Shown here: piece after piece, positions 1,217 to 34,064 of the stretch | Position numbering within the stretch: the stretch's first letter is position 1 | Layout: each line of letters begins with the position of its first letter | Source of the DNA: Candidatus Melainabacteria bacterium | GTDB taxonomy: Bacteria; Cyanobacteriota; Vampirovibrionia; LMEP-6097 | NCBI GenBank assembly: GCA_018695135.1 | Contig: JABHOV010000079.1 | Span: 1 to 34,223, forward strand | Reading direction: 5' to 3' | DNA length: 34,223 nt | Made by a program: the position numbers and the translations under genes | The notes under the pieces: model-generated | Told to the model about the DNA's origin: nothing | Seen by the model: only the letters and a program-made list of their open reading frames with translations | Databases searched by the model: none

Positions 1217-1225
1217 TGCTAAAAT
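1217..1225 (+). promoter_or_regulatory. Extended -10 of deoC
   Basis: TGcTAAAAT sits 7 nt before the ATG at 1233, so the transcript should start at or next to the start codon. There is no Shine-Dalgarno sequence and no convincing -35. The same TGcTAAAAT hexamer context precedes thyX and nrnA. Confidence 0.55.
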
Positions 1226-1228
1226 ATT

Positions 1229-1259
1229 AAAAATGGAGACCCCGGGTATCTCCATTTTT
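1229..1259 (+). promoter_or_regulatory. Hairpin covering the deoC start codon
   Basis: AAAAATGGAGA and TCTCCATTTTT form an 11-bp perfect inverted repeat around a 9-nt loop. The first in-frame ATG (1233) lies in the left arm and a second in-frame ATG (1260) directly follows the right arm. The hairpin could hide the first start codon or act as an attenuator; the function is inference. Confidence 0.5.
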
Positions 1260-2015
1260 ATGAAATTCACCAATAAACTAGTTGATTACACTAATCTCAA
1301 GCCAGATGCCAGTCATCAAGACCTCACTGAACTTGCCCAAAAAGCCAAAAAGCAAGGTTTCAACTCAATTTGCATCAGAAGTGACAGAATCAAGGAATTT
1401 GCTGAGACATACCGCTGCTCAGCTACTATCAACTTTCCAACGAAGGTCTATTACTGCAACTCAGACGAGGATAAAAAATCAATCATCAAAGAAATTGGTA
1501 ATCACAGCCTTGAAGAAAAACTAGCCGAAGCCAAGCAAGCTCTTAATGATGGAGCAGTAGAACTTGATCCGGTAATCAACCTTGCAAACGTCTCCAAACA
1601 TGATTTCAAAAAACTAAGAGCCGAACTGAATGGCTATATTGAATTGATGCAAAGCTATGACAAACCACTTTGGCTTAAACCAATCTTCTCCTGTGAATTA
1701 CTCGAGGACTACAGTATCGAATTTAGCATCGATATTTTAGCTCAAGTTGTTGCAGGCGCTCAACTAAACAAAATCAAAGTAGCTTATAAAAACTCAACTG
1801 GATTTATCAAAACAGAAAATGACTACCCACTCAAAACAACAAGCCAAGAATTAATTTCACTTATTACAGAAAACCTAAACGAATACGATCAAGATGCAAG
1901 AATTAATATCAAAGCCGCTGGTGGAATCAAAGATATAGAAACTGCCGAAACAATTATTGAAGCTGCTGCTGGCAGACTTAGTCACATTGGCACTAGTTCT
2001 GACATGTCTTACTAA
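1233..2015 (+). CDS. deoC: Deoxyribose-phosphate aldolase (DERA), DeoC family
   Basis: A class I aldolase that cleaves 2-deoxy-D-ribose 5-phosphate to glyceraldehyde 3-phosphate and acetaldehyde in deoxynucleoside catabolism. The protein has 260 residues, normal for the family. Near the N-terminus YTNLKPDAS matches the conserved D(H/Y)TxLKPDA segment. ELDPVIN carries the catalytic Asp (D112). YKNSTGF holds the Schiff-base Lys (K186; usually KTSTGF), and IKAAGGI holds the second active-site Lys (K227). Two starts are possible: ATG 1233, 7 nt after a good -10, or ATG 1260 (MKFTNKLVDY), which fits the usual family N-terminus and follows the hairpin. Neither has an SD. I kept 1233 because of its -10 spacing. 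The 3' end converges on rnpB across a large palindrome. Confidence 0.9.
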   Translation: METPGISIFMKFTNKLVDYTNLKPDASHQDLTELAQKAKKQGFNSICIRSDRIKEFAETYRCSATINFPTKVYYCNSDEDKKSIIKEIGNHSLEEKLAEAKQALNDGAVELDPVINLANVSKHDFKKLRAELNGYIELMQSYDKPLWLKPIFSCELLEDYSIEFSIDILAQVVAGAQLNKIKVAYKNSTGFIKTENDYPLKTTSQELISLITENLNEYDQDARINIKAAGGIKDIETAETIIEAAAGRLSHIGTSSDMSY

Positions 2016-2018
2016 GTT

Positions 2019-2092
2019 AACACCGGGTCGTAACGCTGTAACGCTTTGTCAATGCGTATTAGCAAAGCGTTACAGCGTTACGACCCGGTGTT
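2019..2092. repeat. 30-bp perfect inverted repeat between deoC and rnpB
   Basis: Arms 2019-2048 and 2063-2092 are exact reverse complements (AACACCGGGTCGTAACGCTG and onward), with a 14-nt loop. The arm itself contains GTAACGCT twice in tandem. It lies between the convergent ends of deoC and rnpB and could stop transcription from both sides. Neither side has a proper U-tract after the stem, so it is not a textbook intrinsic terminator. Confidence 0.85.
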
Positions 2093-2102
2093 GATAAAAA
2101 TC

Positions 2103-2554
2103 GAGCTGATAATAAGCCGGGTTTTGTTTCTCGGACGATCATCTATCTGGGACTAGAATCACTTCTAGCCTCAAGCGGAATTGAGATCTTTCTTTTTGCT
2201 ATTGAAGCATTTGCAAAAAGCAATAGATCTGGACCTTGCAGCTTCGCTGGGGTTTACCTAGCCTAAGCCTCTCGACTTAGCTGGTAGGCTCTTACCCTAC
2301 CTTTGCACCCTTACTTTGTGGCAGTTTTCAACTTCAATTTCGGTGTTAGACTTGTCCTCATTTGCGAGAGCAAACTTCGGATCAACCTTGCAGGCAAGTC
2401 TGCCTTGAACTTGAAGCTGAGAACTGCCACATAGCGGTATATTTCTGTGGCACTATCCTCACGTTCACACGCACCAGCTCTTAACTGGCAAGCTAGCTTC
2501 AGTGCTGCCCGGACTTTCCTCTGCCACAAGTGACAGCGATCATCTAATCAGCTC
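2103..2554 (-). ncRNA. rnpB: RNase P RNA, bacterial type A
   Basis: This is the catalytic RNA of ribonuclease P, which removes the 5' leader of pre-tRNAs. On the minus strand the diagnostic blocks are present in order: GAGGAAAGTCCGGGC near the 5' end, then AGTGCCACAGAAATATACCG in the middle, then ACAAAACCCGGCTTA near the 3' end. The ends GAGCTGAT (5') and ATCAGCTC (3') pair as stem P1 and define the limits to within a few bases. The length of about 452 nt is longer than the roughly 380 nt of E. coli. Part of the excess is a long hairpin (TGGCAGTT...AACTGCCA, about 2320-2433), probably an extended P12. The 72-aa ORF at 2311-2529 in the track is a shadow of this RNA. Confidence 0.95.
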
Positions 2555-2562
2555 GGCTGTTG

Positions 2563-2568
2563 ATTATA
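2563..2568 (-). promoter_or_regulatory. -10 of rnpB
   Basis: A perfect TATAAT on the minus strand lies 7-8 nt upstream of the predicted RNA 5' end (about 2555). It starts just past the stop codon of the upstream 195-aa gene, so rnpB can be transcribed from its own promoter. No good -35 is visible. Confidence 0.7.
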
Positions 2569-2573
2569 GCTTA

Positions 2574-3161
2574 TTAGGCTGCCTCATTTTCTTGATCCAG
2601 ATCACGAGACAAATGATCTTCAACTTCAAGCTCATTAACTATCATTGCATCTAATAAATCAGAGACAACATGTTCATCAATATCAGCTTTATTTACAACA
2701 TATTCAACTGCAGCAAGGGCATCACGCTTATCAAAGCTATGTTTATTTTCATCATTAACAAAAGCCATAATATTGCTAACGAATTGCTCATTAATATCAA
2801 ACTGATCTTCACTCAGGTTAACCAAGTCTTCTAAGCAAAAAGCACCTGTCTCATCTAATAAACCTTCTTCTTGTGCAAAGGTATTCAATGTCTCATAATC
2901 ATGAAGTATCTTGCCTGCTGGATCAGCTTCAAACAAAAGCACGTCTCCAGCCCTTTCTTGACTCGCTGGCTTAAGAACGGTGTCTGACGCAAATAAAGCC
3001 AATAATTGAGGATCAAGGTCAGATTCTCTTGGTTTAGTCCCTTGCAGTCGCGCATTGTCTGCATCTCTAGACACTAGTTCCCTAGTGCCAAAACGCTCAT
3101 AAAGTCTCTTGACTCTTGGCTCTGGCCAAAATTTGCTTATTCTATCTGTATAATCCACCAT
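2574..3161 (-). CDS. Unrecognised acidic protein (195 aa)
   Basis: I do not recognise a family. The protein begins MVDYTDRISKFWPEPRVKRL, a basic N-terminal stretch, and then becomes strongly acidic, ending DLDQENEAA. There is no signal peptide or membrane segment, so it is probably cytosolic. The second half looks like regular helices rich in Asp, Glu and Leu. The track starts it at 3173, but that ATG overlaps the -10 hexamer TAAGAT (3172-3177). The ATG at 3161, 10 nt after the hexamer, is therefore the better start and gives 195 aa. It follows the histidine kinase gene on the same strand and has its own promoter overlapping that gene's stop. A role as partner or output of the kinase is possible but unsupported. 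Confidence 0.7.
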   Translation of the reverse strand: MVDYTDRISKFWPEPRVKRLYERFGTRELVSRDADNARLQGTKPRESDLDPQLLALFASDTVLKPASQERAGDVLLFEADPAGKILHDYETLNTFAQEEGLLDETGAFCLEDLVNLSEDQFDINEQFVSNIMAFVNDENKHSFDKRDALAAVEYVVNKADIDEHVVSDLLDAMIVNELEVEDHLSRDLDQENEAA

Positions 3162-3171
3162 AATACAAATC

Positions 3172-3201
3172 ATCTTAACACGAGCATTGACGCATTGTCA
3201 A
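3172..3201 (-). promoter_or_regulatory. Promoter of the 195-aa gene
   Basis: TTGACA (3196-3201) and TAAGAT (3172-3177) are separated by 18 nt. The -35 overlaps the stop codon of the kinase gene. Transcription should start within about 3 nt of the ATG at 3161, which rules out the longer start in the ORF track. Confidence 0.65.
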
Positions 3202-4163
3202 GATAATCTTATTGAAAAACGACTACCAGTCTTCAACTCAGATTCAATAGCAATAGTCCAACCATGCAAATCTACTATCGCTTTGACAATAGCAAGTCCC
3301 AAGCCAGTACCTTGAATTGCACTACTTGCTTGCACTCGATAAAACTGATCAAAAACCTTGGCAATATCTGTTTCGGGAATCCCAGTGCCAGTATCTTCGA
3401 CAATCAAAACACCTTCTTTGTAGTGAAGCTGCACACTACCACTATCTTTATTGTATTTAATTCCATTATCAATTAAATTAGCAAGTAAATGATCCAGGTA
3501 TTTTTTATCCGCCTGGATCTTGGTTCCTTTAGGAATATCACTCATGAGTTTAATCTGGCGACTAGTAGCTCTTGACTCAGCCGAGCTAATTAATTTATCA
3601 ACCAACTGTCCCAAATCAATCTCAATTTTGTTTAATTCAACTGAACCACTAAGCACATGCGAGAGGCTGAGCATATCCTGAACCATAGTCCCCAAGCGGT
3701 CCGCCTCATGGTCTAGTTTCTCAAGATACTCCAGTGATTTAACGGCGTCGTCTTTGGCACCAAGCAAAAGAGTTTCAACAAGAGTTTTGATATTTTGTAT
3801 CGGTCGCTTGAGCTCATGTGTACTTTGTTTCATGTCCTGATAAATAATCTGACTAAGTTCAAGCATATAATCATCTTCAAGCTGTTGTAGGTATAAATTA
3901 AAATGCTGACTATTAATTTTGATTTCAATTCGTTTTGATTTGCTTTGTTTAATCTCTTCTCTCAGCTCATCAGATTTTAGTGAACGAATTAATTTGGCAA
4001 GGGCAGCAAGTCCTTGACTTAAAGCACCAAGATCATTGATATTGTCATTCAAGCTCGACAAATCCCAGCCCAAAATCTTTTGTGCTGCAGGGTTTAATTC
4101 TTGGATCTTTAGAAGCTCGCTATCAAATAGCAGAACTCCAGTGTTGAGTTCGTCTATATCCAT
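3198..4163 (-). CDS. Soluble sensor histidine kinase
   Basis: A two-component sensor kinase that should autophosphorylate on His and pass the phosphate to a response regulator. Residues 1-100 look like a small PAS-like sensor (GVLLFDSELLKIQELNPAAQ). The dimerisation/H-box at about 110-172 has STHELKRPIQN with phospho-acceptor His116. The ATPase domain has the N box LIDNGIKYN (Asn233), the G1 box VEDTGTGIPE (257-264), the F box FDQFYRV and the G2 box GTGLGLAIVKA (285-295). The 321 residues contain no membrane segment, so it senses something in the cytoplasm or through a partner. No response regulator lies next to it, so it is an orphan here. The immediate upstream DNA has no clear -10 or SD. 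Confidence 0.92.
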   Translation of the reverse strand: MDIDELNTGVLLFDSELLKIQELNPAAQKILGWDLSSLNDNINDLGALSQGLAALAKLIRSLKSDELREEIKQSKSKRIEIKINSQHFNLYLQQLEDDYMLELSQIIYQDMKQSTHELKRPIQNIKTLVETLLLGAKDDAVKSLEYLEKLDHEADRLGTMVQDMLSLSHVLSGSVELNKIEIDLGQLVDKLISSAESRATSRQIKLMSDIPKGTKIQADKKYLDHLLANLIDNGIKYNKDSGSVQLHYKEGVLIVEDTGTGIPETDIAKVFDQFYRVQASSAIQGTGLGLAIVKAIVDLHGWTIAIESELKTGSRFSIRLS

Positions 4164-4241
4164 TAATTAGATTGTTCCACAATTTAGTTCAAATCGTCCC
4201 CCTGACCCAAGATACAAGATATCCACAACTGTTTATCAATC

Positions 4242-4274
4242 TATAAATACGCCCAGCTTTATAAATACAGCCAG
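4242..4274 (+). promoter_or_regulatory. Two direct repeats with TATAAATAC cores upstream of the 131-aa gene
   Basis: TATAAATACGCCCAG (4242-4256) and TATAAATACAGCCAG (4260-4274) differ at one base and start 18 nt apart. Each holds a TATAAA -10-like hexamer. A related TATAAAATACAGC precedes the next gene (4720-4732). This may be a doubled promoter or a regulator site shared by the two paralogous genes. Confidence 0.45.
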
Positions 4275-4313
4275 GGAAATCAAAGATCACTTATCGGACC
4301 AAAAGGAAGTCTG

Positions 4314-4709: not shown

Positions 4710-4719
4710 AGCAAATCAC

Positions 4720-4732
4720 TATAAAATACAGC
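4720..4732 (+). promoter_or_regulatory. TATAAAATACAGC motif before the 251-aa gene
   Basis: It resembles the doubled TATAAATAC elements upstream of the paralogous 131-aa gene and contains a -10-like hexamer about 53 nt before the GTG start. Confidence 0.35.
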
Positions 4733-4778
4733 ATTTATCCTGCTTTGTAACTACAGGGACAAGGAAAAGGGACAAAAC

Positions 4779-5534
4779 GTGGAAGCATTCACCACAGCAC
4801 TAAGAAGATCAGCACTATCACTTATACCAGGTGGTGGATTAGTTAATGCCAGCATAGAAGCAACAGATTGGCAACAAATCAAAGACTCAACTAAACAAAT
4901 ACTTGAGCAGAGTTTTAAACCTAAGCAAAAAGAAATCGCCCAAAGCAAAGTGACGGAAGTCATTATACAAAAACCTGAAAATAAAGAACTCAAAGACAAA
5001 TCACCAAAAAAAATCCAGAGAGCACGTGTCTCAAAAAGCGACAACAATTTATTACAAAAACTTTGGTATGAGCAACAAAACTATTACCACGAGATGGTTG
5101 AACAGATGGACAAAGCAAGGCAGCAAGCACAAGAATATTTAAAAAGAACCAGAGAGCAGCACGAAGAGAGAAGAACGGCAGAAGCCACAAGACAAAAAGA
5201 ATCAGAACCAAAACACAACTGCAATGATCTCTGTGACAGCAAACGAAGACTACTTAAACTAGCAAGCCGTTATGGAGTTGCAGTTGAAGCAAATTTGTTA
5301 ACGTTGAGCACAAGTGATCTAGAACAAACTATCAAAGCCAGAATTCAACACAATATCATTGGCTTTATAGCATTTGCCAAAGAGAACCCTAGCCTCGGTT
5401 ACAACAGAGCATTGCGAGAATATGCCTCCAATTCAATAGATAGTAGTGTTAGAGAACTAGTCGCCAATGATGTTCAATTGGGCGCCAGTAGTGATATACT
5501 TAACCCCCATGAAAGAAGTCTCGCCCAAGTCTAA
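4779..5534 (+). CDS. Unrecognised protein with coiled coil and C-terminal domain shared with its neighbour (251 aa)
   Basis: The start is GTG, supported by the purine-rich SD AAGGAAAAGGGAC just upstream. Residues 1-30 are mildly hydrophobic (ALSLIPGGGLVNASIEATDW) but are not a clear signal peptide. Residues about 90-145 are charged and predicted coiled coil (LWYEQQNYYHEMVEQMDKAR, then QQAQEYLKRTREQHEERR). The last 100 residues begin KHNCNDLCDSKRRLLKLASR and match the 131-aa protein upstream, including an HN..C element before the KxASRxG helix. The gene overlaps the 5' end of tsaC by 26 nt. It is a paralog of its neighbour with an added N-terminal half; the function is unknown. The pair may form a complex (inference). 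Confidence 0.75.
   Translation: MEAFTTALRRSALSLIPGGGLVNASIEATDWQQIKDSTKQILEQSFKPKQKEIAQSKVTEVIIQKPENKELKDKSPKKIQRARVSKSDNNLLQKLWYEQQNYYHEMVEQMDKARQQAQEYLKRTREQHEERRTAEATRQKESEPKHNCNDLCDSKRRLLKLASRYGVAVEANLLTLSTSDLEQTIKARIQHNIIGFIAFAKENPSLGYNRALREYASNSIDSSVRELVANDVQLGASSDILNPHERSLAQV
5473..5500 (+). promoter_or_regulatory. Promoter of tsaC inside the preceding gene
   Basis: TATACT (5495-5500) ends 8 nt before the ATG at 5509. TTCAAT (5473-5478) lies 16 nt upstream of it as a weak -35. This supports the start at 5509 and not the track's start at 5467. Confidence 0.45.
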
Positions 5535-7240: not shown

Positions 7241-7248
7241 CTGTTATA

Positions 7249-7254
7249 ATATTA
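7249..7254 (-). promoter_or_regulatory. -10 of the Eda-like/trmL operon
   Basis: TAATAT on the minus strand ends 8 nt before the GTG start at 7240. The tract is AT-rich (TAATATTATAAC), so an overlapping TATTAT is also possible. Confidence 0.35.
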
Positions 7255-7266
7255 CATAAGTAAGGG

Positions 7267-7282
7267 TCACTTGTGCAAGTGA
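7267..7282. promoter_or_regulatory. Palindrome TCACTTGTGCAAGTGA upstream of abiEi (first pair)
   Basis: Two 7-bp arms around TG, 80 nt before the antitoxin ATG. AbiE antitoxins are known to repress their own promoter by binding inverted repeats, so this is a candidate operator. It lies between the eda-like gene and abiEi and could touch either promoter. Confidence 0.4.
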
Positions 7283-7295
7283 TGATTTATTTCAT

Positions 7296-7345: not shown

Positions 7346-7361
7346 AAGTAATGTTGTAGAA

Positions 7362-8810: not shown

Positions 8811-8824
8811 ACCTTTTGTATGCC

Positions 8825-11027: not shown

Positions 11028-11038
11028 GAACTGAATCT

Positions 11039-11073
11039 AACACTGTATGTGTGTTCCAGTTCTCATTATACCA
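11039..11073 (-). promoter_or_regulatory. Promoter and candidate operator of the second AbiE operon
   Basis: TGgTATAAT on the minus strand (-10 hexamer at 11065-11070) is an extended -10. The inverted repeat AACAC-N7-GTGTT (11039-11055) covers the start of the predicted transcript and fits negative autoregulation by the AbiEi protein. Confidence 0.5.
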
Positions 11074-11593: not shown

Positions 11594-14455
11594 ATGGCAA
11601 CACCAATAACAGGATTAAATAATCAAAACGTTCTTCAAGATAGAGAAGACGGAGGTTCTACAACATCAAAATCATCTAACGGTGCGGATGCTTTATTGAA
11701 TCTATATGCTGACGGCGGCAAAAGAGAGGGCATGGAAAATGCTCCAAAAACAATTAAAACAATTGGCTCAGTTGAAACTGACGAAGCAAGAGTTCAAGAG
11801 ATTGAAGCCAAATTCAAATCAGCACTTGATGAAGCAATGAGTGCAAGTAACGACAATGGTCTTAAGGTACTTGATGATCCAGATGGACTAGTTGCAAAAA
11901 AACTAGTAGCACTTTCACCCAAAGCAGTTGAGTCATACTCTACATTAATTAGAGAAGCTCAAAAACAACTTGGAGAATTAGGGCATGATGCACCTGTACT
12001 TAAAGACGAAGAAAATCTCAAAAGATTTTTCAACATTGCAAGTATGAATGTTGGTGATGATGAAGATGGTGTCAAACTCAAGGATCAAGCCAGACAAGTC
12101 ATTAGACAAATCAGAGAATACAAAGGTGGCAAAAGTGTAGATCCATCAATCGAAAAACTTCTTTTTGCTAACGATGCAACAGATTTTATTGACCAACTTA
12201 AAAACATGGTTAAATCCGGTGGGCTTAAGGTTTTCTCTAGAGAGAATGATGGAAGCGTTGGGCGCAAAGTAGTTAAGCTTGTCAAAGGTTTTGGAGATCT
12301 GCAAGAACACGCAGCATCAGTATTAATGGCCAAAGTTGATGAATTACTTACTGGTTCGCCAGATAGAGAACTTATTGATAACTTAACCAAAACTGAGGTT
12401 GATGCTTTATTCTCATTAAGACATACTATTGCTAGAGATTTCAATGCAATTAGTAGTAATGAGCTTTCTAAAAAATATGACGGCATAGATCACCTAACTG
12501 GTGCAGAAAAAGAAAATGCTGAAGCAAGCCTCGCTAGAATTGCTGATATTCAAAGAGGAATTGGCGCTCTTTATAACGCCAGAACTAGAAAAGAATATCA
12601 AGATGCTCAAGCAAGCCTTGCAAAAATTCACGTAAGCAACTTTAGCGAAAAATACAAAATTGCTCATGGTGTTGCTAGAGCTGATGATGTGCTTAGACAA
12701 CTTAAGTCAGTTGAGAAGAGTGATATACCACAAACAGTAGTAATCCCAACTTCTTTCCTTTCAGATTCACCTGAAAACAAGATTGCTTTTATTAGAGATA
12801 CTTATAGTAATGCAACCAAGACTCTTAATTTTATTGAAATAGAAAAGCCAGATAGAACTAAAATCACTTCTGATCAAGCACGTACACAAGCACTGGCTTT
12901 AGTTGAAGCCAACAAAGCACAAAACAATGATCACACAGTACAGCTGTCTGATAATACAGTAGTAAAATTATCAACTTTGAGAGCTTTTGTTGATGCAACA
13001 GCAACATCAGCAGAACCAGATGAAAGAGATAAAACAAAATGGGCTGATGATGATTCTTATACTAACCTATTGAATAAAATCCAAGATGGAATATTTGGCA
13101 AAGAAGATAAGGATTATCAAGCGAGAAAGAAAGATGCAGAGGACACACTCAACTCAATCAAAAGTAATTTTAATGCAAATATTTATGAAGAAACTCAAAC
13201 TGCCTCAGAGATATTGGCTGAATTAACTGATGAACAAAATCAAACACTCATAAATAAATTAGAAGATACAACGGCAAGCTTTGGGGCTTGGACTATGGTT
13301 CTATCAAATGAGAACGAAGAAAAAATTGCTCAAATCCGATCATTAGTAACCGATGCTAAGAATGATTTATTACTAGCAGACAACGATATCAAACGTAGAG
13401 AAGATGATGAATACAAAATCCTCTATAGACCACTTGGCAAGAATGCTGAAACAGTGGCTTTCGCTGTAAGAAATGCAGTGATGGATTACTTAGTAAGTGA
13501 AGAGGATAATGAATTTACTCAGCAAGCTCGAAATCTTTTAACAAAAGAGACCAAGGATGCACTTAAAGATGAACAAGTTGCATACTTACAAGCAATGCGT
13601 AATTCAAGTGAGTCATTGATCAAGGAAGGCTATAGTATATATCAAAAAGAAGAAAGCTCAGAATTATTCAATAAATTAGGGATGACTTCTGATCTTGATA
13701 TTAACAAGTTCTACACTGAAGACAATGGTGGCTTAAAATCGATCATCCAAACAATAGATAACTTAGCTGGCATCACAGGGGAAGGCACTAAATCACAACA
13801 TTATTCTGGGTCTTATACATTTAGTTCAACTGAACGAGCTCTACTCACAAGAGACGATAATTTAGAAACAGATCAAGCTACACAAATCAAGTCAAGAGCA
13901 GAGAAATTAGTAATCATAACTACTAAGTTACAAGAACTCGCAAGAACAACTGCTACTCATGATGAATTAACAGCTGCTCTTAAATCAGACACTACTCTCA
14001 GCAACATGTTTAGTAATCTAGTTACTAGCAAAGAGAAGGTTGAACCTATTCTTAAACGCTTAGAGTCAATTGGTGAGCAAGTTAAAGACGAAGAAAAGTC
14101 ACTTAAAGAAACTAGAAAAGAACTAGAAGCTTGGACAGCATCAGGTAATAGCGAAGGTATTTTTGGATATTCAACAGGCAAAAGCTTTTTGACAGGATCA
14201 ATTAAATACTTACAAAATATCGTAAGCAGAATGTTCTCACATGCTAGTGATTCTGTTAAGAAACAACACACAGAAGAACTTGGTAAAAGGATAGAAGGTG
14301 CTGTTAAAGACCTTGATACTACTAATCCTTTTGAAGAAGCAGCAGCAAGTGCTCTAAATCAATTTGCAACAGTTGATAAAGTAGCAACTTACCAAAAAGC
14401 TAGAAATTTAGCTAGAGAGATTGCAGCAACTTCAGACAGTACTGATTCAGTATAA
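11594..14455 (+). CDS. Unrecognised large helical protein (953 aa), first gene of the unknown cluster
   Basis: I recognise no family. The first 60 residues are polar and disordered (ATPITGLNNQ, DGGSTTSKSSNGADALL). The remainder is nearly all charged helix with no signal peptide, membrane span or cysteine cluster. A clear coiled-coil stretch spans about 810-847 (EPILKRLESIGEQVKDEEKS, LKETRKELEAW). A Gly/Phe patch follows (GIFGYSTGKSFLTGSIKYLQ, then NIVSRMF), the most hydrophobic part. The start at 11594 is backed by the SD AAAGGAAAAG and a strong doubled promoter. An intrinsic terminator follows, so it is a single-gene unit, though next to the B-C operon. A structural, scaffold or secreted-effector role are all possible; none is shown. 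Confidence 0.85.
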   Translation: MATPITGLNNQNVLQDREDGGSTTSKSSNGADALLNLYADGGKREGMENAPKTIKTIGSVETDEARVQEIEAKFKSALDEAMSASNDNGLKVLDDPDGLVAKKLVALSPKAVESYSTLIREAQKQLGELGHDAPVLKDEENLKRFFNIASMNVGDDEDGVKLKDQARQVIRQIREYKGGKSVDPSIEKLLFANDATDFIDQLKNMVKSGGLKVFSRENDGSVGRKVVKLVKGFGDLQEHAASVLMAKVDELLTGSPDRELIDNLTKTEVDALFSLRHTIARDFNAISSNELSKKYDGIDHLTGAEKENAEASLARIADIQRGIGALYNARTRKEYQDAQASLAKIHVSNFSEKYKIAHGVARADDVLRQLKSVEKSDIPQTVVIPTSFLSDSPENKIAFIRDTYSNATKTLNFIEIEKPDRTKITSDQARTQALALVEANKAQNNDHTVQLSDNTVVKLSTLRAFVDATATSAEPDERDKTKWADDDSYTNLLNKIQDGIFGKEDKDYQARKKDAEDTLNSIKSNFNANIYEETQTASEILAELTDEQNQTLINKLEDTTASFGAWTMVLSNENEEKIAQIRSLVTDAKNDLLLADNDIKRREDDEYKILYRPLGKNAETVAFAVRNAVMDYLVSEEDNEFTQQARNLLTKETKDALKDEQVAYLQAMRNSSESLIKEGYSIYQKEESSELFNKLGMTSDLDINKFYTEDNGGLKSIIQTIDNLAGITGEGTKSQHYSGSYTFSSTERALLTRDDNLETDQATQIKSRAEKLVIITTKLQELARTTATHDELTAALKSDTTLSNMFSNLVTSKEKVEPILKRLESIGEQVKDEEKSLKETRKELEAWTASGNSEGIFGYSTGKSFLTGSIKYLQNIVSRMFSHASDSVKKQHTEELGKRIEGAVKDLDTTNPFEEAAASALNQFATVDKVATYQKARNLAREIAATSDSTDSV

Positions 14456-14483
14456 TTAAGTAAATAATATAGTTAAATTCATT

Positions 14484-14510
14484 AAAACAGCCCTAAATAG
14501 GGCTGTTTTT
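14484..14510 (+). terminator. Intrinsic terminator after the 953-aa gene
   Basis: AAAACAGCCCT-AAAT-AGGGCTGTTTT followed by TG is a perfect 11-bp stem with a tetraloop and U-tract, the best classical terminator in the window. Confidence 0.92.
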
Positions 14511-14536
14511 GTTATTAGGTATTGTCAAATCTCCAC

Positions 14537-14542
14537 TATAAT
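14537..14542 (+). promoter_or_regulatory. -10 of the 740-aa gene
   Basis: A perfect TATAAT lies 26 nt before the ATG at 14569. The expected -35 position has no good match. The promoter follows directly on the terminator of the 953-aa gene. Confidence 0.5.
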
Positions 14543-14568
14543 TTGCTTTGTATATGTGAGCTATAAAG

Positions 14569-16791
14569 ATGATACAAATCAGCCCACAACAAATATTCGC
14601 CGGCAGAGCAGCTAACGCTAACAGTGCAGCTATTGATGCTTCAATAATAAATGATCAATTTGATGCAACGAAAACATTGCTTGGACTTGTAGAGCGTCAT
14701 GGTCAAGGTGCCAGAGTAAGCAACAGAAAACCAGAGAATATCGAACTAATTAAAAAAGCATTGAGTAACTTAAGTACTGAATTACTAGAGAAGAAATCAA
14801 CGGCAGGTAGATTAGTTGACACTGGTCTAAGCTATCTGCCAGGAACAAGCACAAGTAGACTAAGAGCAGCAACAAGAGCGAATACTGAATCGTCATTATT
14901 CAATAACCAAGAAGTCTTAACACTAATTACTGCTATGGCTCGAGAAGCTAATAACAGCACAAATCTTCCAATGGATATTCGAGATGAAGCTAGAAAAACT
15001 TTAAATACTTGGTTAAATACAACTCGCCTAGCAGGGTCCGCAATTGAAAAAGATAGCACCGAAATTAAAAGAAGAGAGCAAAGAGCTTATACAGCAACTG
15101 ACGCTGTTAAACAAATCATTACTGGTACCAACCAAACTGAAAGGCTAAGAGGTGCAGCCACAATAATTGAATTAGCAAGCAAAACAGGTAAAAAAGAAAA
15201 CAGCCTTAGCCATTACTTAGATAAAATAGAAGACTCTTTTAGCCCCAATGGTCATATAATTCGAGAGATAGTGGGCAAAGAAGTTAATGACGCAATTGCT
15301 GGACTACCTGACTTGATGAAAAACCCTGACTTGGTTATGAGCGAAGACATTAGTCTAGTACATGATCTTAAGGCTTCAGTATCACAATTAATCCAGCATA
15401 CTGGTAAATCTAATAGAATAACATCTGCTTTTATTGAATTACTTAACACAGACTTCGACACTAAGCACCACAAGCTTGCCTTAGATAAAATACACGAGAT
15501 CATTCAAGATTTTTCTGATCAGCATAGTAAATTCGATAAACTCCATAAAGGTTACATGCAGATTGAAACAGAATTGAACTCTAGCGAAAATGACAACTCA
15601 ACAGTTAGGTATGAATTCATGACCAAGAAGCAATTACAAGAACTTGCTACTGTTCACGGACTCTCTGTTACTGGTCAAACCAGAGCAAGATTAATTACTC
15701 AATTAAAAGCCAGTACTTCAACTAATGCTGCAACCATTTTAGTAACAAGAGACAATATTGATATCGCCAATAGGCTTAAAGTAGATGCGAAGAATAAAAT
15801 GGACCTCATTACCAATAGTTTTAAAAAAGAAACAGACAAACTCAAAAAGGCATTTGTCGAGCTTCCAAGCTTAGCTACTGCGTTTTATGAAATGGTTGGC
15901 CCAAGACTTGGTATGGGCATTACTGGCACTGACGAATATCATGAAATATTTCCAGAACAAAGAAAAACACTTGAAGCAAACATCAAAAATGAGTTTAAGG
16001 AAGAAAAGAAAACGCTGACTGACAAAATTGACAGCCTTGAAGCTCAAAGCAGAACAATAAATACAAAAGCACAAGGTCAAAGAACCAAGCTTTTGTCTTA
16101 TATCAAAGATGATTTGAAACTTAATGAACCAGGAACTACTCAGTCATGGCTTAAAGCATTAGACAGTATTAGAAATGAAAGATCGAATCCTCATTTAGAT
16201 CCTCTTTACGAAAAACTACTTTTAATTAAACAAGACATTGAAAGCAATGGAACTGTTGACGATGACACTCTTGTTAGCACTTCTCATTTATTAATTAGTT
16301 TTGTTCAAGCGGAAAAAGAATTAGATCAATTGGCATCTAAAACTCCTTTATCAACTTTCAAAGCTCATGCTGGCAATATTGATCCAACATCACCAATGTC
16401 TACAACTGACGAATTATATAACGCCTCTATTACTGTCACTAACTTAGAAAGAGAACTCGCTAACTTATCAGCAAAAGCAGAAGACGCACAGACAAGAATA
16501 GATAGAATCAATAAGCCCGAGCAATTAGAGGAAATGGTTAAGTCTGAAATGGAAGCAAAATTCAGTAGCAGAGTAGTTAATTCATATAATGCATTAGTTC
16601 ATATTGGGATAATCACCGAACAGAATCTAGATAAAGTAGTTACAGATCTTGAACAAACAGCAACCTATTACAGAACAAATCAAAGTAATTTTGAAACAGA
16701 GTCAATAGGAGAAGTAATACTTGCTGCCTTTAATTACATTGTCAATTTATTTAAAAACGGATATCAAGGTGCACTCAAAGAAAAAGAATAG
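14569..16791 (+). CDS. Unrecognised large helical protein with SAP-like motif (740 aa)
   Basis: No full-length family recognised. Residues about 349-381 (EFMTKKQLQELATVHGLSVT then GQTRARLITQLKAS) match the SAP helix-extended-helix pattern (LkxxeLkelaxxxGLxxxGxKxxLixRL), which binds DNA or RNA. The rest is charged helix: an N-terminal Ala/Asn-rich segment, a basic loop around 80-105 (YLPGTSTSRLRAATRA) and coiled-coil stretches near 465-505 and 625-660. The final 30 residues are amphipathic (GEVILAAFNYIVNLFKNGYQ). No catalytic motif, signal peptide or membrane span is evident. The start ATG 14569 has only a weak GAG-type SD. The 129-aa gene follows 18 nt later. A nucleic-acid-associated structural role is a reasonable guess. 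Confidence 0.83.
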   Translation: MIQISPQQIFAGRAANANSAAIDASIINDQFDATKTLLGLVERHGQGARVSNRKPENIELIKKALSNLSTELLEKKSTAGRLVDTGLSYLPGTSTSRLRAATRANTESSLFNNQEVLTLITAMAREANNSTNLPMDIRDEARKTLNTWLNTTRLAGSAIEKDSTEIKRREQRAYTATDAVKQIITGTNQTERLRGAATIIELASKTGKKENSLSHYLDKIEDSFSPNGHIIREIVGKEVNDAIAGLPDLMKNPDLVMSEDISLVHDLKASVSQLIQHTGKSNRITSAFIELLNTDFDTKHHKLALDKIHEIIQDFSDQHSKFDKLHKGYMQIETELNSSENDNSTVRYEFMTKKQLQELATVHGLSVTGQTRARLITQLKASTSTNAATILVTRDNIDIANRLKVDAKNKMDLITNSFKKETDKLKKAFVELPSLATAFYEMVGPRLGMGITGTDEYHEIFPEQRKTLEANIKNEFKEEKKTLTDKIDSLEAQSRTINTKAQGQRTKLLSYIKDDLKLNEPGTTQSWLKALDSIRNERSNPHLDPLYEKLLLIKQDIESNGTVDDDTLVSTSHLLISFVQAEKELDQLASKTPLSTFKAHAGNIDPTSPMSTTDELYNASITVTNLERELANLSAKAEDAQTRIDRINKPEQLEEMVKSEMEAKFSSRVVNSYNALVHIGIITEQNLDKVVTDLEQTATYYRTNQSNFETESIGEVILAAFNYIVNLFKNGYQGALKEKE

Positions 16792-16809
16792 TAAAATAAG
16801 GAACAACCA

Positions 16810-17199
16810 ATGTCATCAAAATACCAAGCATTATTAAAAACCAAAACCAATATTGCTTTAGCCGAAGCAGAAGACGAGAATGCCAAATTTGCACATCATC
16901 TAATTAAATGCTTAGATAAAGGTTCTGACTGGTTACAAATAGAAACTATTAAGAATCTCAAATACTTTAGCGAATTTGATTTTGTACGTAAATCATTAAT
17001 ATGTAAATATCAAAAAACAGATAGTATTAAAGTAAAACAAGCTATTAAAGATTTACATGATGGTTTATTAAATACATCAGACATTGATCAATTAATTCAG
17101 GATTATTCAGAACCTGAATTAATAGATGATTCAAAGGAAAAATCGCCTGAGCCAATGATTGACTCTCGAGAGCTCCAATTTAGAAAAAATCAATATTAA
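16810..17199 (+). CDS. Unrecognised small protein, HEAT-like helices and acidic tail (129 aa)
   Basis: The gene follows the 740-aa gene by 18 nt with the SD AAGGA and so belongs to its operon. The middle part (DWLQIETIKNLKYFSEFDFV, then KVKQAIKDLHDGLLN) looks like one or two HEAT-type helical repeats, which usually serve protein binding. The last 30 residues are acidic and Pro/Ser-rich (PELIDDSKEKSPEPMIDSRE), a likely disordered tail. It could be a partner or chaperone for the large proteins encoded before it; this is inference from position and size. Confidence 0.7.
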   Translation: MSSKYQALLKTKTNIALAEAEDENAKFAHHLIKCLDKGSDWLQIETIKNLKYFSEFDFVRKSLICKYQKTDSIKVKQAIKDLHDGLLNTSDIDQLIQDYSEPELIDDSKEKSPEPMIDSRELQFRKNQY

Positions 17200-17239: not shown

Positions 17240-17248
17240 TGCTAAAAT
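17240..17248 (+). promoter_or_regulatory. Extended -10 of thyX
   Basis: TGcTAAAAT ends 7 nt before the ATG at 17256, which predicts a leaderless transcript. No SD is present. Confidence 0.55.
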
Positions 17249-19262: not shown

Positions 19263-19290
19263 ATCCTACCACAGTGGTGGATAAATTCAA
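19263..19290 (-). promoter_or_regulatory. Promoter with embedded palindrome for the DUF4143 gene
   Basis: On the minus strand TTGAAT and TAGGAT are spaced by 16 nt, and the -10 ends 6 nt before the ATG at 19256. The palindrome ACCACtGTGGT fills the 3' part of the spacer and touches the -10, a typical repressor position. Confidence 0.5.
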
Positions 19291-19312: not shown

Positions 19313-20212
19313 CTATTGAGCCATCAAACTAAGCAAAATAGCCTTCTGAGCATGCAATCTATTTTCTGCTTGATTAAGTATTGTGGCTTCGTGCTTATCA
19401 ATTACTTCAGTAGTAATTTCTTCACCACGATGAGCAGGCAGGCAATGCAAGACTATCGCTTCTGGTTTTGCGTATTCATCTAAAAGCTTCATGCTAATTT
19501 GATAACCGGAAAATATTTTTTTACGTCTAACAGCATCCCTTTCTTGTCCCATACTAGACCAAACATCTGTGTAAATAACGTCTGCGTCTTGAGTTGCTTC
19601 AGCGACACTATGGGTGAGAGTAGTAAATTCAGATCTAAACTCTTCACTCGGTTCATACTCTAAAGGAGAAGCTACTGACAATTGGATACCTAACTTGGTG
19701 CAAGCAAGCATTAGTGAATGCACAGTGTTGTTACCGTCACCGACATAAGCGATCTTGAGTCCTTTGAAGCTACCGAAGTGCTCTTTAATGGTGAGCAAGT
19801 CTGCCATGGTTTGGCAAGGATGTTCAAGGTCACTAAGTCCGTTGATAATTGGGATAGTAGCAAAGCTAGCAGTCTCAGTTAGAACTTCATGACCAAAAGT
19901 TCTAATCATCAAAGCATCAAGATAGCATGACATTACTTTGGCAACATCAGAGCGAGCTTCGCGCTCACCAATTTGAATCTCACTACTATTAAGTACAAGC
20001 ACCGAACCACCGAGTTGTTTCATGCCAACATCAAAACTAATACGAGTACGCAAGCTTGGCTTTTCAAAAATCAAACCAAGAGATTTTCCTCGAAGTAATT
20101 TAGTCTGATCCTTTCCTTTCTTGACCTCTTTTTTAAGTTCTGCAGCCCGGTCCAAAAGAGCAAGCAGCTCTTTTTTGTTGACATCATCTATACTCAAGAA
20201 ATTCTTTACCAT
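19313..20212 (-). CDS. argF: Ornithine carbamoyltransferase
   Basis: Transfers the carbamoyl group from carbamoyl phosphate to ornithine, giving citrulline in arginine biosynthesis. The 299-aa protein carries the carbamoyl-phosphate motif as KPSLRTR (53-57; STRTR in many OTCases), GGSVLVLNSSEIQIGERE, HPCQTMADLL (131-140), IAYVGDGNN, TDVWSSMGQE and the ornithine-site HCLPAHRGEEI (256-266). The DVWSSMGQE and HCLP motifs identify OTCase and not aspartate carbamoyltransferase. The start at 20212 lies 7 nt inside the end of mazG, so the two are coupled. No other arginine genes are in the window. Confidence 0.95.
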   Translation of the reverse strand: MVKNFLSIDDVNKKELLALLDRAAELKKEVKKGKDQTKLLRGKSLGLIFEKPSLRTRISFDVGMKQLGGSVLVLNSSEIQIGEREARSDVAKVMSCYLDALMIRTFGHEVLTETASFATIPIINGLSDLEHPCQTMADLLTIKEHFGSFKGLKIAYVGDGNNTVHSLMLACTKLGIQLSVASPLEYEPSEEFRSEFTTLTHSVAEATQDADVIYTDVWSSMGQERDAVRRKKIFSGYQISMKLLDEYAKPEAIVLHCLPAHRGEEITTEVIDKHEATILNQAENRLHAQKAILLSLMAQ

Positions 20213-21063
20213 ACTGTAGATCCTAACATAATTTTGGCTTCAGACCATAATCCTTCTAAGGTCTCTACCTCACATTCTTTCATGACCAATCCTTTTTTTT
20301 TACACAAGTCCTGCATTACCTTAAAACGATCTATGAATTTATTATTTACCCTACGTAAGGCATCTTCTGGGTCAATTTTGTACCATCTGGCGATATTAAC
20401 AACAGTAAACAAAATATCCCCAAGTTCAAGCTCAGCATCTATCCTGGTACGTTCATTATCATAGCCATCTTTGTATGGATCCTTGCCAGTATCCAATCTA
20501 TAATTCTCAATCACTTCTTTCAGCTCATGAACCTCCGAATCAAGCTGACCCCAGAGCTTATTTTCTTCATCCCACTCAAAGCTCTCTGTAACTGCCTTCT
20601 TGGATATTTTCCAAGCTCTAGCTAAAGCAGGCATATTGACTGGAATACCTTCAAAGAGTCCCTGCCTTGCTTTTTTCTCTTTGGCTTTTTCAGCGTCCCA
20701 TAATTTATCAACTTCTTCAGTTGTTCCAGCTGCATCACTAGCAAAAACATGTGGATGTCTTTTAATCATCTTGGTATCAATACTATTAACAACATCGGCA
20801 AAACTAAAGCGTCCGTTTTCTTCAGCAATACGAGAATGCAAAACTATCTGTAATAAAAGATCACCAAGCTCTTCTTTGAGGTTGTCAAAACCAGCTGCTC
20901 CATTTGATTCTTCCACCACATCAAGTGCTTCAAGCGCTTCGTATGACTCTTCAAGCATGTATCGCTTGAGCGAACCGTGGCTCTGTTTGAGATTCCAAAC
21001 ACAACCCTTCTTTGGGTCTCTAATTTCTTCGATTGTTTTGAGGAATTTATCGATTTCTTGCAT
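20206..21063 (-). CDS. mazG: Nucleoside triphosphate pyrophosphohydrolase MazG
   Basis: Hydrolyses NTPs/dNTPs to the monophosphate and PPi, cleaning aberrant nucleotides and influencing (p)ppGpp. The 285 residues hold two MazG-like halves. The first has GCVWNLKQSHGSLKRYMLEE, then EESYEALEALD and LKEELGDLLLQIVLHSRIAE, the ExxE...ExxD metal-binding helices. The second has WEEN-like SFEWDEENKLWGQLDSEVHE and ELELGDILFTVVNIARWYKI. The overall length and two-domain plan match the E. coli type. It starts at ATG 21063, 7 nt after the extended -10 TGtTATGAT, and overlaps argF by 7 nt. Confidence 0.94.
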   Translation of the reverse strand: MQEIDKFLKTIEEIRDPKKGCVWNLKQSHGSLKRYMLEESYEALEALDVVEESNGAAGFDNLKEELGDLLLQIVLHSRIAEENGRFSFADVVNSIDTKMIKRHPHVFASDAAGTTEEVDKLWDAEKAKEKKARQGLFEGIPVNMPALARAWKISKKAVTESFEWDEENKLWGQLDSEVHELKEVIENYRLDTGKDPYKDGYDNERTRIDAELELGDILFTVVNIARWYKIDPEDALRRVNNKFIDRFKVMQDLCKKKGLVMKECEVETLEGLWSEAKIMLGSTVW

Positions 21064-21070: not shown

Positions 21071-21079
21071 ATCATAACA
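21071..21079 (-). promoter_or_regulatory. Extended -10 of the mazG-argF operon
   Basis: TGtTATGAT on the minus strand ends 7 nt before the mazG ATG. No SD is present. Confidence 0.5.
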
Positions 21080-21086: not shown

Positions 21087-21194
21087 GGTCATTGCGAGCC
21101 CGAAGGGCGTGGCAATCCAATGCAGAGATAATCGTTCTAGCTTGAATTTATGCATTAGATTGCCGCGTCGGTCTTAAACCTCCTCGCAATGACC
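21087..21194. repeat. GTCATTGCGAG dispersed palindromic repeat, copy 2
   Basis: Termini GGTCATTGCGAG and CTCGCAATGACC are perfect 12-bp inverted ends. Internal arms GCAATCCAATGCA and TGCATTAGATTGC pair again. It fills the divergent mazG-nrnA promoter region, between both -10 hexamers. Confidence 0.9.
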
Positions 21195-21200: not shown

Positions 21201-21209
21201 TGCTAAAAT
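21201..21209 (+). promoter_or_regulatory. Extended -10 of nrnA
   Basis: TGcTAAAAT ends 6 nt before the ATG at 21216. No SD is present. Confidence 0.5.
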
Positions 21210-23876: not shown

Positions 23877-23882
23877 ATTATA
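23877..23882 (-). promoter_or_regulatory. -10 of rsmE
   Basis: A perfect TATAAT ends 7 nt before the GTG start. No SD is present. Confidence 0.6.
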
Positions 23883-23884
23883 GC

Positions 23885-23932
23885 GTCATTGTCAGCGAAC
23901 CAAGTGCTTAGAGAAGCCACAATCCAATGCAT
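23885..23932. repeat. Degenerate half of a GTCATTGCGAG repeat in the rsmE-serS promoter region
   Basis: GTCATTGtcAGCGAA...GAAGCcacAATCCAATGCAT resembles the left half of copies 1-3. It fills the space between the two divergent -10 hexamers. Confidence 0.5.
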
Positions 23933-23936
23933 AAGT

Positions 23937-23942
23937 TATAAT
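23937..23942 (+). promoter_or_regulatory. -10 of serS
   Basis: A perfect TATAAT ends 7 nt before the ATG at 23950. No SD, no T-box-like leader and no room for one. Confidence 0.65.
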
Positions 23943-27664: not shown

Positions 27665-27671
27665 AGCTACA

Positions 27672-27677
27672 ATTGTA
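27672..27677 (-). promoter_or_regulatory. -10 of ycf23-lptF
   Basis: TACAAT on the minus strand ends 7 nt before the ATG. The -35 position falls inside the inverted repeat arm and has no match. Confidence 0.45.
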
Positions 27678-27688
27678 ACCTACCGACA

Positions 27689-30266: not shown

Positions 30267-30278
30267 TGAATTTCCTTT

Positions 30279-31172: not shown

Positions 31173-31179
31173 TTAAGTG

Positions 31180-31188
31180 ATCTTAACA
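31180..31188 (-). promoter_or_regulatory. Extended -10 of the SPFH-hisZG operon
   Basis: TGtTAAGAT on the minus strand ends 7 nt before the ATG at 31172. No SD is present. Confidence 0.5.
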
Positions 31189-31233
31189 TAGAGGTTAAGG
31201 GAAAGGGGAAAAGGTATTAGAGAAAAGGAAATA

Positions 31234-31272
31234 TGAGTTAAGGATTTATTAAAACTACTATCCTTAAGCTCA
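31234..31272. repeat. Hairpin in the divergent SPFH-gap promoter region
   Basis: TGAGTTAAGGAT (31234-31245) pairs with ATCCTTAAGCTCA (31260-31272), with one bulged base and a 14-nt loop. A purine-rich tract to the left (GGGAAAGGGGAAAAGG) and TTCCCTATTCCC to the right may extend it imperfectly. Possible regulator or insertion remnant. Confidence 0.5.
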
Positions 31273-31297
31273 TTCCCTATTCCCTATTCCTTAGCTC

Positions 31298-31306
31298 TGT
31301 TATAAT
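31298..31306 (+). promoter_or_regulatory. Extended -10 of gap
   Basis: TGtTATAAT ends 10 nt before the ATG at 31317, leaving a leader of only a few nucleotides. No SD is present. Confidence 0.6.
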
Positions 31307-31316
31307 TCTTACTATT

Positions 31317-32345: not shown

Positions 32346-32366
32346 TTAATTTACAAAAATCATAGA

Positions 32367-32448
32367 CTAGGAGCGTGTAACCCAGCCCATATTAACCAAC
32401 TGACGTCCTAATATTTAGGTGAAGTTGGGCTGGATGACAAGCTCCTAG
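32367..32448. terminator. Long nested inverted repeat after gap
   Basis: Arms 32367-32389 and 32426-32448 pair over 23 bp with 3 mismatches (CTAGGAGC...GCTCCTAG, CCAGCCCA...TGGGCTGG). Inside, CCAACT and AGTTGG allow a competing fold. It lies between the convergent gap and secreted-protein genes and probably ends both transcripts, although no U-tract follows. Confidence 0.65.
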
Positions 32449-32471
32449 AGAGCTTGTTCAACAGGGTCTTT

Positions 32472-33254
32472 CTAATAACTCAAAAACTTAATGGTGTCGA
32501 CGGTCTTAGAGATGGTCTGACCATCAACATCAAGCTCAAGTAATATTTCAAGCTTATCAAGAGGCTGCTCTTTTTTAAGAGTCAAATTGACTGCAATAAT
32601 TTCATCTGTTAAGAACTTGGCTTCCTGTCCATTGATGCGCGGCTTGCGAATTGTCTTTGCTAATGTAAAACCATAGGTCTCTATGTTTGCGATCGTAACA
32701 AACATATTTTCTGAAAATATACGCTCGTTGGGACCAAGCAATTCTGCCTTACTAATCCCCATAAAAGGTAAAGAGAATTCATTCTTCAACAACTCTATCC
32801 CTGAACTGATCTTGGAATTGTCTACAGTTTCTGCAAAGTCTGGAATTAAACTAACAGACTTGATACTGGCTTTAGCTTCACCACTATAATTCACTCGAGT
32901 TAGTGAACCATGAAACAACAATTCATCCTGACTTGGTTTTTTAGCAAAGAAAACTCTAATCAAAGAGTTGTTTTGATCAACAGTTTTAAACAAAATACTA
33001 TCCTCACCTTCAATGATATTTTTAGGGCAAAGTTCGGCACCATTACCATTTTCAGTTAAGGCAAAACTACTATGCATCGAAAATGATTCATTAATCACGA
33101 ATGCATTTTTTGGTTCAAATTCAAGTTCAATTTCGAGAGCTGCTATTTTTTTCAATTCTTCTCCGTGAAGCTTGATACGAAATTCTTCTGCATGTAGTGG
33201 CAAAGCCAATAATGTGAGAATCAACAAATGCACAGCGATTGTTTTATTTAGCAC
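32472..33254 (-). CDS. Secreted protein of unknown function, possible cohesin-like beta sandwich (260 aa)
   Basis: The N-terminus MLNKTIAVHLLILTLLALPL with following HAEEF is a clear Sec signal peptide (cleavage probably after HA, about residue 22). The next 130 residues alternate as beta strands: ELKKIAALEIELEFEPKNAF, ILFKTVDQNNSLIRVFFAKK, LLFHGSLTRVNY, KASIKSVSLIPDF. The strand pattern recalls cohesin-type domains (carrier/anchoring modules), but I cannot claim a family match. The C-terminal third is another strand-rich segment. It overlaps the 3' end of lpxC by 11 nt, so the genes are co-translated. Probably periplasmic or surface-exposed. Confidence 0.72.
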   Translation of the reverse strand: MLNKTIAVHLLILTLLALPLHAEEFRIKLHGEELKKIAALEIELEFEPKNAFVINESFSMHSSFALTENGNGAELCPKNIIEGEDSILFKTVDQNNSLIRVFFAKKPSQDELLFHGSLTRVNYSGEAKASIKSVSLIPDFAETVDNSKISSGIELLKNEFSLPFMGISKAELLGPNERIFSENMFVTIANIETYGFTLAKTIRKPRINGQEAKFLTDEIIAVNLTLKKEQPLDKLEILLELDVDGQTISKTVDTIKFLSY

Positions 33255-34050
33255 AACAAACCTCCTGTAATAATTTAGCAGCCCTAGAGTTCAGTTCATG
33301 ACCACCTTTGTGACTAGTAACATGCATTGCAATCTTGACTGGATTCATTCCAGAAAGTCTCAAGTCACCAATTAAATCAAGTGCTTTATGTCTGGCTGGT
33401 TCATTTGCTTGATGCAAATCATGAGTAAAATCATCTTCAGTCAAACCAATCACCCAACCACTAAGTCCAAGCATTTTATTTTCTTCTTCATTACTAAAAG
33501 TACGAGCAGTAGCAATATCATCAATTGATTCATCAATAGACCAAGTATATTCTTGCTTACCAATCTTGGGGTGTTTCCAATCAAGACAATAAGTCAATTT
33601 GAAATCTGGACTAGGTTTCAAAACAATATACCGAGAATCATCATTCTCATCAACAATTCGATATTCTTGTTCAAGGTGATATTGAATACCGCGATCACCT
33701 TGTCTTAGACCTGCCTGCTTAAAGAAATCGATCCATAGCTTTGCTGAACCATCACCAAAAGGTAATTCTGACTCACTAATACTAAGATCAAAATTATCGA
33801 GTCCATAGATTGATGCAGCAGCTAAAAAATGTTCAGTTAAGCAAAGACATTCACCTGCCTTGGCAAGCACTGTATTACGTTGAGTGCTATGTAAATTATC
33901 AATATGAGCCTCGATCAATACATTATTGAGTAAAAACCTTAATCCATTAGCATCATTAGCAGTAATCACAGCTTTGATTAGTTCTCGACTAATAATGCCT
34001 TTCGACTCTAATTCATTGTCTTTTATGTAGTATTGGGTGTTATTCACCAT
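33244..34050 (-). CDS. lpxC: UDP-3-O-acyl-N-acetylglucosamine deacetylase
   Basis: The zinc-dependent, committed step of lipid A biosynthesis. The 268-aa protein carries CLCLTEHFLAAASIYGLDN (TxEHLLAA, with a zinc His), LPFGDGSAKLWIDF (MDGSA-like; Met replaced by Gly), ATARTF, and NEPARHKALDLIGDLRLSG (the RHK.LDxxGDL block with the other two zinc ligands). The C-terminal SHKGGHELNSRAAK corresponds to the xSGHxLN catalytic His region. The sequence is divergent and a little shorter than the roughly 300 aa of Proteobacteria but keeps the ligands. The ATG at 34050 follows TATAAT by 8 nt. It shows the host makes lipid A, in agreement with lptF. Confidence 0.9.
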   Translation of the reverse strand: MVNNTQYYIKDNELESKGIISRELIKAVITANDANGLRFLLNNVLIEAHIDNLHSTQRNTVLAKAGECLCLTEHFLAAASIYGLDNFDLSISESELPFGDGSAKLWIDFFKQAGLRQGDRGIQYHLEQEYRIVDENDDSRYIVLKPSPDFKLTYCLDWKHPKIGKQEYTWSIDESIDDIATARTFSNEEENKMLGLSGWVIGLTEDDFTHDLHQANEPARHKALDLIGDLRLSGMNPVKIAMHVTSHKGGHELNSRAAKLLQEVCCAK

Positions 34051-34058
34051 ATAGGCTT

Positions 34059-34064
34059 ATTATA
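34059..34064 (-). promoter_or_regulatory. -10 of lpxC
   Basis: A perfect TATAAT on the minus strand ends 8 nt before the ATG. No SD is present. Confidence 0.6.

Follow-up and report, generated by a model that had tools for sequence, protein, structure and literature searches.

Promoter-like boxes set against start codons point to leaderless transcription in a Melainabacteria family

Boxes at the gene starts of the window

The stretch of DNA analysed here (the window, 34,223 nt) is contig C120 of a 2.05 Mb draft genome (124 contigs, 94% complete) from an uncultured non-photosynthetic relative of cyanobacteria, and many of its genes, among them deoC, thyX, mazG, serS and lpxC, carry a hexamer resembling a bacterial -10 promoter element a few nucleotides before the start codon. 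In a tree of seryl-tRNA synthetase proteins, the large family f4 nests among records named Candidatus Gastranaerophilales and Candidatus Melainabacteria, and this grouping places the host in that class, Vampirovibrionia in GTDB terms, but in a different family (f1). A first-pass annotation of the window had read the hexamers as a sign of widespread leaderless initiation.

The calls of genes and their starts relied solely on hexamer coding score and the type of start codon, with the upstream sequence left out. Start regions were scored with a three-class mixture model (box, Shine-Dalgarno [SD] site, or neither) that was learned de novo and allows one signal per gene. A posterior >0.9 defines the best-scoring set, and internal ATGs and column-permuted sets served as controls. 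Genome-wide tests covered 763 kb of the host's own genome (38% GC), sampled as stretches and containing 597 genes with 60 nt of upstream sequence. The boxes of the window, with the posterior of each, are as follows.

1217..1225, + strand: extended -10 TGCTAAAAT, 7 nt before the deoC ATG (1233); posterior 1.00
3172..3180, - strand: extended -10 TGTTAAGAT, 10 nt before the start of a 195-aa gene (3161); posterior 0.94
4171..4179, - strand: weaker box TGGAACAAT, 7 nt before a gene starting at 4163; posterior 0.69
5492..5500, + strand: extended -10 TGATATACT, 8 nt before the tsaC-like start (5509); posterior 0.98
7249..7254, - strand: box TAATAT, 8 nt before the eda-like GTG start (7240); posterior 0.57; conserved in congener G001
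11034..11042, - strand: extended -10 TGTTAGATT, 6 nt before the abiEi start (11027); posterior 0.93
17240..17248, + strand: extended -10 TGCTAAAAT, 7 nt before thyX (17256; Pfam Thy1); posterior 1.00
19263..19271, - strand: extended -10 TGGTAGGAT, 6 nt before the DUF4143 gene start (19256); posterior 0.86
20220..20228, - strand: extended -10 TGTTAGGAT, 7 nt before a gene starting at 20212; posterior 0.88
21071..21079, - strand: extended -10 TGTTATGAT, 7 nt before mazG (21063; Pfam MazG); posterior 0.99
21201..21209, + strand: extended -10 TGCTAAAAT, 6 nt before the nrnA-like start (21216); posterior 1.00
23877..23885, - strand: -10 CGCTATAAT, 7 nt before the rsmE-like GTG (23869; Pfam Methyltrans_RNA); posterior 1.00; box and spacing retained in congeners G001 and G002
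23934..23942, + strand: -10 AGTTATAAT, 7 nt before serS (23950); posterior 0.99
27672..27680, - strand: -10 GGTTACAAT, 7 nt before the ycf23-like start (27664); posterior 0.98; retained in G002
31180..31188, - strand: extended -10 TGTTAAGAT, 7 nt before the SPFH-A start (31172); posterior 0.98
31298..31306, + strand: extended -10 TGTTATAAT, 10 nt before gap (31317); posterior 1.00
34059..34067, - strand: -10 GGCTATAAT, 8 nt before lpxC (34050; Pfam LpxC); posterior 1.00

Read directly, the upstream sequences bear out the first-pass annotation: -10-like hexamers stand at the distances it gave at all 15 genes it listed, with the spacing ambiguous by one base at abiEi (TAGATT at 6 nt or TTAGAT at 7 nt) and likewise at the eda-like gene, and the three extended boxes it called identical are those of deoC, thyX and nrnA. 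It had also found these genes to lack SD sites, and the SD posterior is indeed at most 0.03 at 14 of the 15 and 0.13 at the DUF4143 gene, an exclusivity of box and SD site that is partly built in because the model permits one signal per gene. Two genes outside that list also fit, namely 20212(-), whose start overlaps the end of mazG and whose box keeps its spacing in both G001 and G002, and 4163(-), whose block from box to ATG is identical in G001 while the DNA upstream differs. Across the window the box posterior exceeds 0.9 in 13 of 31 genes and 0.5 in 17, compared with 0.8% and 7.5% of the window's 133 internal ATGs; retraining with the window left out yields 12 and 17 genes.

Two further observations concern the gene map itself. 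The longest-ORF starts are probably wrong at the tsaC-like gene (5467) and the 195-aa gene (3173), where the box points to the internal ATGs 5509(+) and 3161(-). Positions 11594-17199 hold three consecutive genes of lower GC (953, 740 and 129 aa) with no Pfam match, the first and third of which look SD-led.

A phased extended -10 and its context across the genome

The genome-wide check that the first-pass annotation had proposed, a search for a TAnnnT peak upstream of starts, yields such a peak. Measured from the end of the hexamer to the start codon, TATAAT occurs at none of the 597 genes at 5 nt, 23 at 6 nt, 13 at 7 nt and 7 at 8 nt, over a background of about 0.5 per position. The TANNNT/TATAAT box is thus positionally clustered, centred about 12 nt before the start, as in the class of genes described as TA-led. 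Without recourse to annotation, an ATG lies 6-8 nt downstream at 38 of the 110 TGnTAWAAT sites in the 763 kb, and at 0-4 of them at any other offset. Under the mixture model, 161 genes (27% of 597) have a box posterior >0.9, compared with 1.0-1.6% of internal ATGs, and 16% of genes reach the same threshold for an SD site, compared with 1-2% of controls.

A genome of 38% GC, in which TANNNT alone is common, could place TATAAT-like words before ATGs by chance, or the choice of starts could itself have made the pattern. This explanation has a negligible probability and is already refuted by the following controls: internal ATGs (1-2% vs 27%); column permutation, in which the 36 TATAAT boxes at 6-7 nt (about 1 expected) compare with a mean of 1.8 and a maximum of 7 in 200 sets; AT-richer genomes run through the same caller, which show less signal or none (f4, 30% GC, 12%; f7, 34% GC, 0%); and the start rule, since the same spacing peak appears with longest-ORF starts or with the first ATG.

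The motif learned de novo (T.64 G.76 n T.94 A.96 T.48 A.74 A.83 T.93) is that of an extended -10, TGnTAtAAT, with a weak TATG upstream of it. A model-free count agrees, with TGn directly ahead of 38% of the TANNNT boxes at 6-8 nt (63 of 164) vs 11% of control TANNNT words (37 of 347). In the host genome, a -35 hexamer sought at all spacings before the boxes does not stand out. With TGn directly before the hexamer and a seemingly dispensable -35, the boxes belong to the extended -10 class, and they would be expected to act without a -35.

Conservation follows the same outline. Between the host and G001, the segment from the extended -10 through the start is 90% identical and the 20 nt upstream 69% (a small sample), and TANNNT is found at identical spacing in 10 of 13 genes in G001 and, in G002, which is more distant, in 5 of 6 (again small samples). 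At rsmE, serS and the 4163(-) gene, the block of conservation opens at the box or immediately ahead of it, and the sequence further upstream is unrelated. A dispersed repeat ending in CTCGCAATGAC (approximately AGATTGC..CGCCCTTCGGGCTCGCAATGAC) also lies immediately ahead of the box, in a single orientation, at eight genes of the leaderless type, with copies in the window at 21088-21097 (-) and 21184-21193 (+) and others at L016, L136, L140, L163 and L167. Because the repeat ends 17-34 nt before the start at these eight genes, their -35 region is repeat DNA. As read from the sequence, the breakdown of upstream homology and the repeat in the -35 region agree with promoters that would not need a -35.

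The boxes also depend on position within the transcription unit. They precede 130 of 399 free-standing genes (33%) vs 4 of 78 genes that overlap their upstream neighbor (5%; p = 7e-8), so that they concentrate at unit-leading genes as TA-led boxes do, and SD sites show the opposite trend (21 of 78 overlapping genes, 27%, vs 55 of 399 free-standing ones, 14%). Ordinary SD sites are found at internal operon genes and at some unit-leading genes. This distribution is what a transcription signal predicts and what an AT-rich translational signal does not. Were the boxes instead non-SD ribosome binding sites of the S1 type, as in Bacteroidetes, with promoters further upstream, they would be equally useful at free-standing and overlapping genes and should be present at internal operon genes too. 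AT-rich positions near -10 to -20 in several phyla may be S1 sites (PMC5397173), and two proteins of the host carry several S1 domains each. Nonetheless, the phased TGnTATAAT with its sharp edge at 6 nt matches promoter geometry, as does the frequency with which genomic TGnTAWAAT sites are followed by an ATG at 6-8 nt, and we regard a translational origin of the boxes as very improbable.

The first-pass annotation further proposed that housekeeping genes are leaderless while lineage-specific unknown genes are SD-led. A weak tendency in that direction survives, but a clear split does not. Among random genes not internal to operons, a Pfam family is present in 25 of 30 leaderless-type vs 16 of 30 SD-type proteins (Fisher p = 0.025; one SD-type member, the rpoC fragment L005:4446(-), begins inside domain 3, so that its start is probably wrong, and it is not used as an argument), and conservation by tblastn is 45% vs 34%, which is not significant (p = 0.17). 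Clear housekeeping genes stand among the SD-led ones (rpsG, rplK, tuf, ssb, an HU-like gene and an adenylosuccinate synthetase), and genes of no assigned function occur among the leaderless type too. Transcription-unit position is a stronger correlate of the box than gene function.

Distribution among relatives and the initiation machinery

Under the model learned on the host genome, the proportion of genes with a posterior >0.9 is 30% and 29% in the two congeners and 26%, 22% and 16% in well-sampled members of other genera of the same family (G003, G007 and G006). Elsewhere it is 11% in f6, 7-12% in f4, 7% in f2, 2.5% in f3, 3% in Delta/Acidobacteria and 0% in f7, f8 and Bacilli, with internal-ATG controls at 0-3%. 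We also counted TGNTAWAATN{6,8}ATG over whole genomes, without gene calls, against a spacing control of N{20,22}; for G004 and G005, which have few genes in the gene-level sample, these counts are the evidence. The near spacing is in excess in all nine family f1 genomes (G000-G008): near/far counts are 75/11 in the host (G000), 77/12 in G001, 79/13 in G002, 55/9 in G004, 51/6 in G005, 52/17 in G006, 35/10 in G003, 37/15 in G007 and 13/5 in G008, or ratios of 6.1-8.5 in genera g1, g3 and g4 and 2.5-3.5 in g2 and g5. Most of the remaining class shows little excess. Ratios are 1.3-2.0 in f4 and 1.2-2.8 in f6, f7 and f8 lie near 1, and among other families of the phylum four genomes (f19, f29) give 0.9-1.8. 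In G009, G020 and G202, where the counts are small, the ratio is higher, and we leave this uninterpreted.

A strong signal in Gastranaerophilales, suggested by a reversed-pattern control alone, was rejected: it mostly reflects the general abundance of TGnTAWAAT, with a near/far ratio of 1.3-2.0 vs 2.5-8.5 in the host family. Separately, in family f13, of the same phylum but another class, the near pattern occurs at 1.5-2.8 times the N{20,22} control (G196, G200, G205, G214, G218), and f13 is possibly a second, weaker leaderless group.

The host's primary sigma factor RpoD (L261) retains the H and E of region 3.0, which from comparison with E. coli RpoD we take to be the residues that contact TGn, and its region 4.2 is intact and normal. 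Six proteins with sigma-70 region 3 are encoded at L260-L265, and at least four are close to RpoD. The 16S gene was not found in the host assembly, and relatives were used in its place: in six members of the family the 16S 3' end reads ...GGATCACCTCCTTT, with the tail CCTCCTTT intact. The anti-SD sequence is therefore kept in the family, and SD initiation should still be possible.

Probable compact promoters and comparison with known leaderless systems

Taken together, the sequence evidence makes it highly probable that these boxes are compact promoters set against the start codon, and that this Melainabacteria family uses leaderless transcription as Mycobacterium and Deinococcus do. The widespread leaderless initiation put forward by the first-pass annotation is well supported in motif, position, genome-wide excess, operon dependence and conservation, with the 5' ends themselves predicted. 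In such a scheme, the housekeeping sigma factor would read the extended -10 (TGn-TATAAT) without a -35. The usual distance from the -10 hexamer to +1 is 6-7 nt, the same as the spacing from hexamer to start, so that +1 would coincide with the start codon's first base: transcription would begin 7-8 bp downstream of the box, which at spacings of 6-7 nt is the start codon's A or G, and spacings of 8-12 nt would give a leader of one to a few nucleotides. The mRNA, being leaderless or nearly so, would then be translated without an SD site. Roughly one third of free-standing genes would be led by such promoters.

A partly compatible reading, in which these are ordinary promoters with very short SD-less leaders (about 2-15 nt), is unlikely as the general account but merits consideration. 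In 24% of the best-scoring genes (39 of 161) the box lies at 9-12 nt, and in four of five ribosomal-protein genes that seemingly lead their units (four in the host, rpsJ in G001) it lies at 10-12 nt (rpsL, rpsD and rplJ, and rpsJ in G001). The spacing distribution under the mixture model (28% at 6 nt, 22% at 7 nt, 16% at 8 nt, 10% at 9 nt and 8% at 10 nt) has its mode at 6-7 nt, where +1 would coincide with the codon's first base, and 5 nt is empty. Several points weigh against the main reading. Gene starts were called computationally, transcription may start a few nucleotides up- or downstream, additional upstream promoters may supply leaders, and the genes with 9-12 nt spacings may have short leaders.

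The contrast between sister families also invites an evolutionary reading. At serS, a box precedes the start in genus g1 and family f6, and Gastranaerophilales-type (f4) orthologs have AGGTGG or GAGG SD sites. We tentatively suggest, as a possibility with somewhat less than an even chance, that one family of the class moved many of its genes, some unit-leading ribosomal-protein genes among them, away from SD-led and towards leaderless initiation through an extended -10 free of a -35, while the gut order Gastranaerophilales kept SD initiation. If so, orthologs such as serS record the switch, and the group is a natural experiment on the spread of leaderless translation. Since leaderless use varies between sister families, hypotheses on its gain or retention can be tested on orthologous genes, here in an independent lineage of 38% GC close to Cyanobacteria. 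More practically, a model of a promoter at the start, rather than SD sites, is the one to use in this uncultured group when gene starts are predicted or expression is designed.

The family very likely adds a lineage to a mode of gene expression that was already known, the more interesting sides being the unusually plain extended -10, the -35-free design and the family-concentrated distribution. In line with the first-pass annotation, which knew of no description for this lineage, we found no paper joining "leaderless" with Melainabacteria or Vampirovibrio in a search that missed most subscription papers. The wider surveys fit this picture. A survey of 953 genomes found TANNNT about 12 bp before the start, mostly at unit-leading genes, and predicted leaderless genes so marked in 206 bacterial genomes besides Streptomyces coelicolor (PMC3160421), and the host shares both the position and the preference for unit leaders. 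GeneMarkS-2, as cited in PMC9581028, predicted leaderless transcription in 21.6% of bacterial species and put Cyanobacteria in a weak-pattern group. Cyanobacteria are atypical or weak-pattern in PMC3160421 and in what PMC9581028 relates of that work, and the host family differs from them.

Mycobacterium tuberculosis offers a close comparison: about a quarter of its genes are leaderless, with TANNNT, no conserved -35 and an SD system intact alongside (PMC3898074), a picture that the predictions for the host match. Half of the tRNA synthetases are leaderless there, and serS is probably of this type in the host. The two differ in phylum and in the host's 38% GC, in the TGn extension (7% of TANNNT boxes in M. 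tuberculosis vs 38% in the host) and in ribosomal-protein genes, none of which is leaderless in M. tuberculosis (PMC3898074), whereas the host's rpsL, rpsD and rplJ and the rpsJ of G001 have boxes at 10-12 nt. In Deinococcus, a -10 box at about a third of genes has been shown experimentally to act as a promoter without a -35, boxes of this kind having been tested in Deinococcus radiodurans (PMC12340547). Deinococcus-Thermus resembles the host in having a -10 a few bp before the ORF at a specific spacing, mostly without a -35, at about 30% of ORFs, and differs from it in that its boxes are verified by experiment while those of the host are predicted promoters. The extended TGn is prominent in the host; the term "extended" is absent from the text on Deinococcus-Thermus (PMC12340547).

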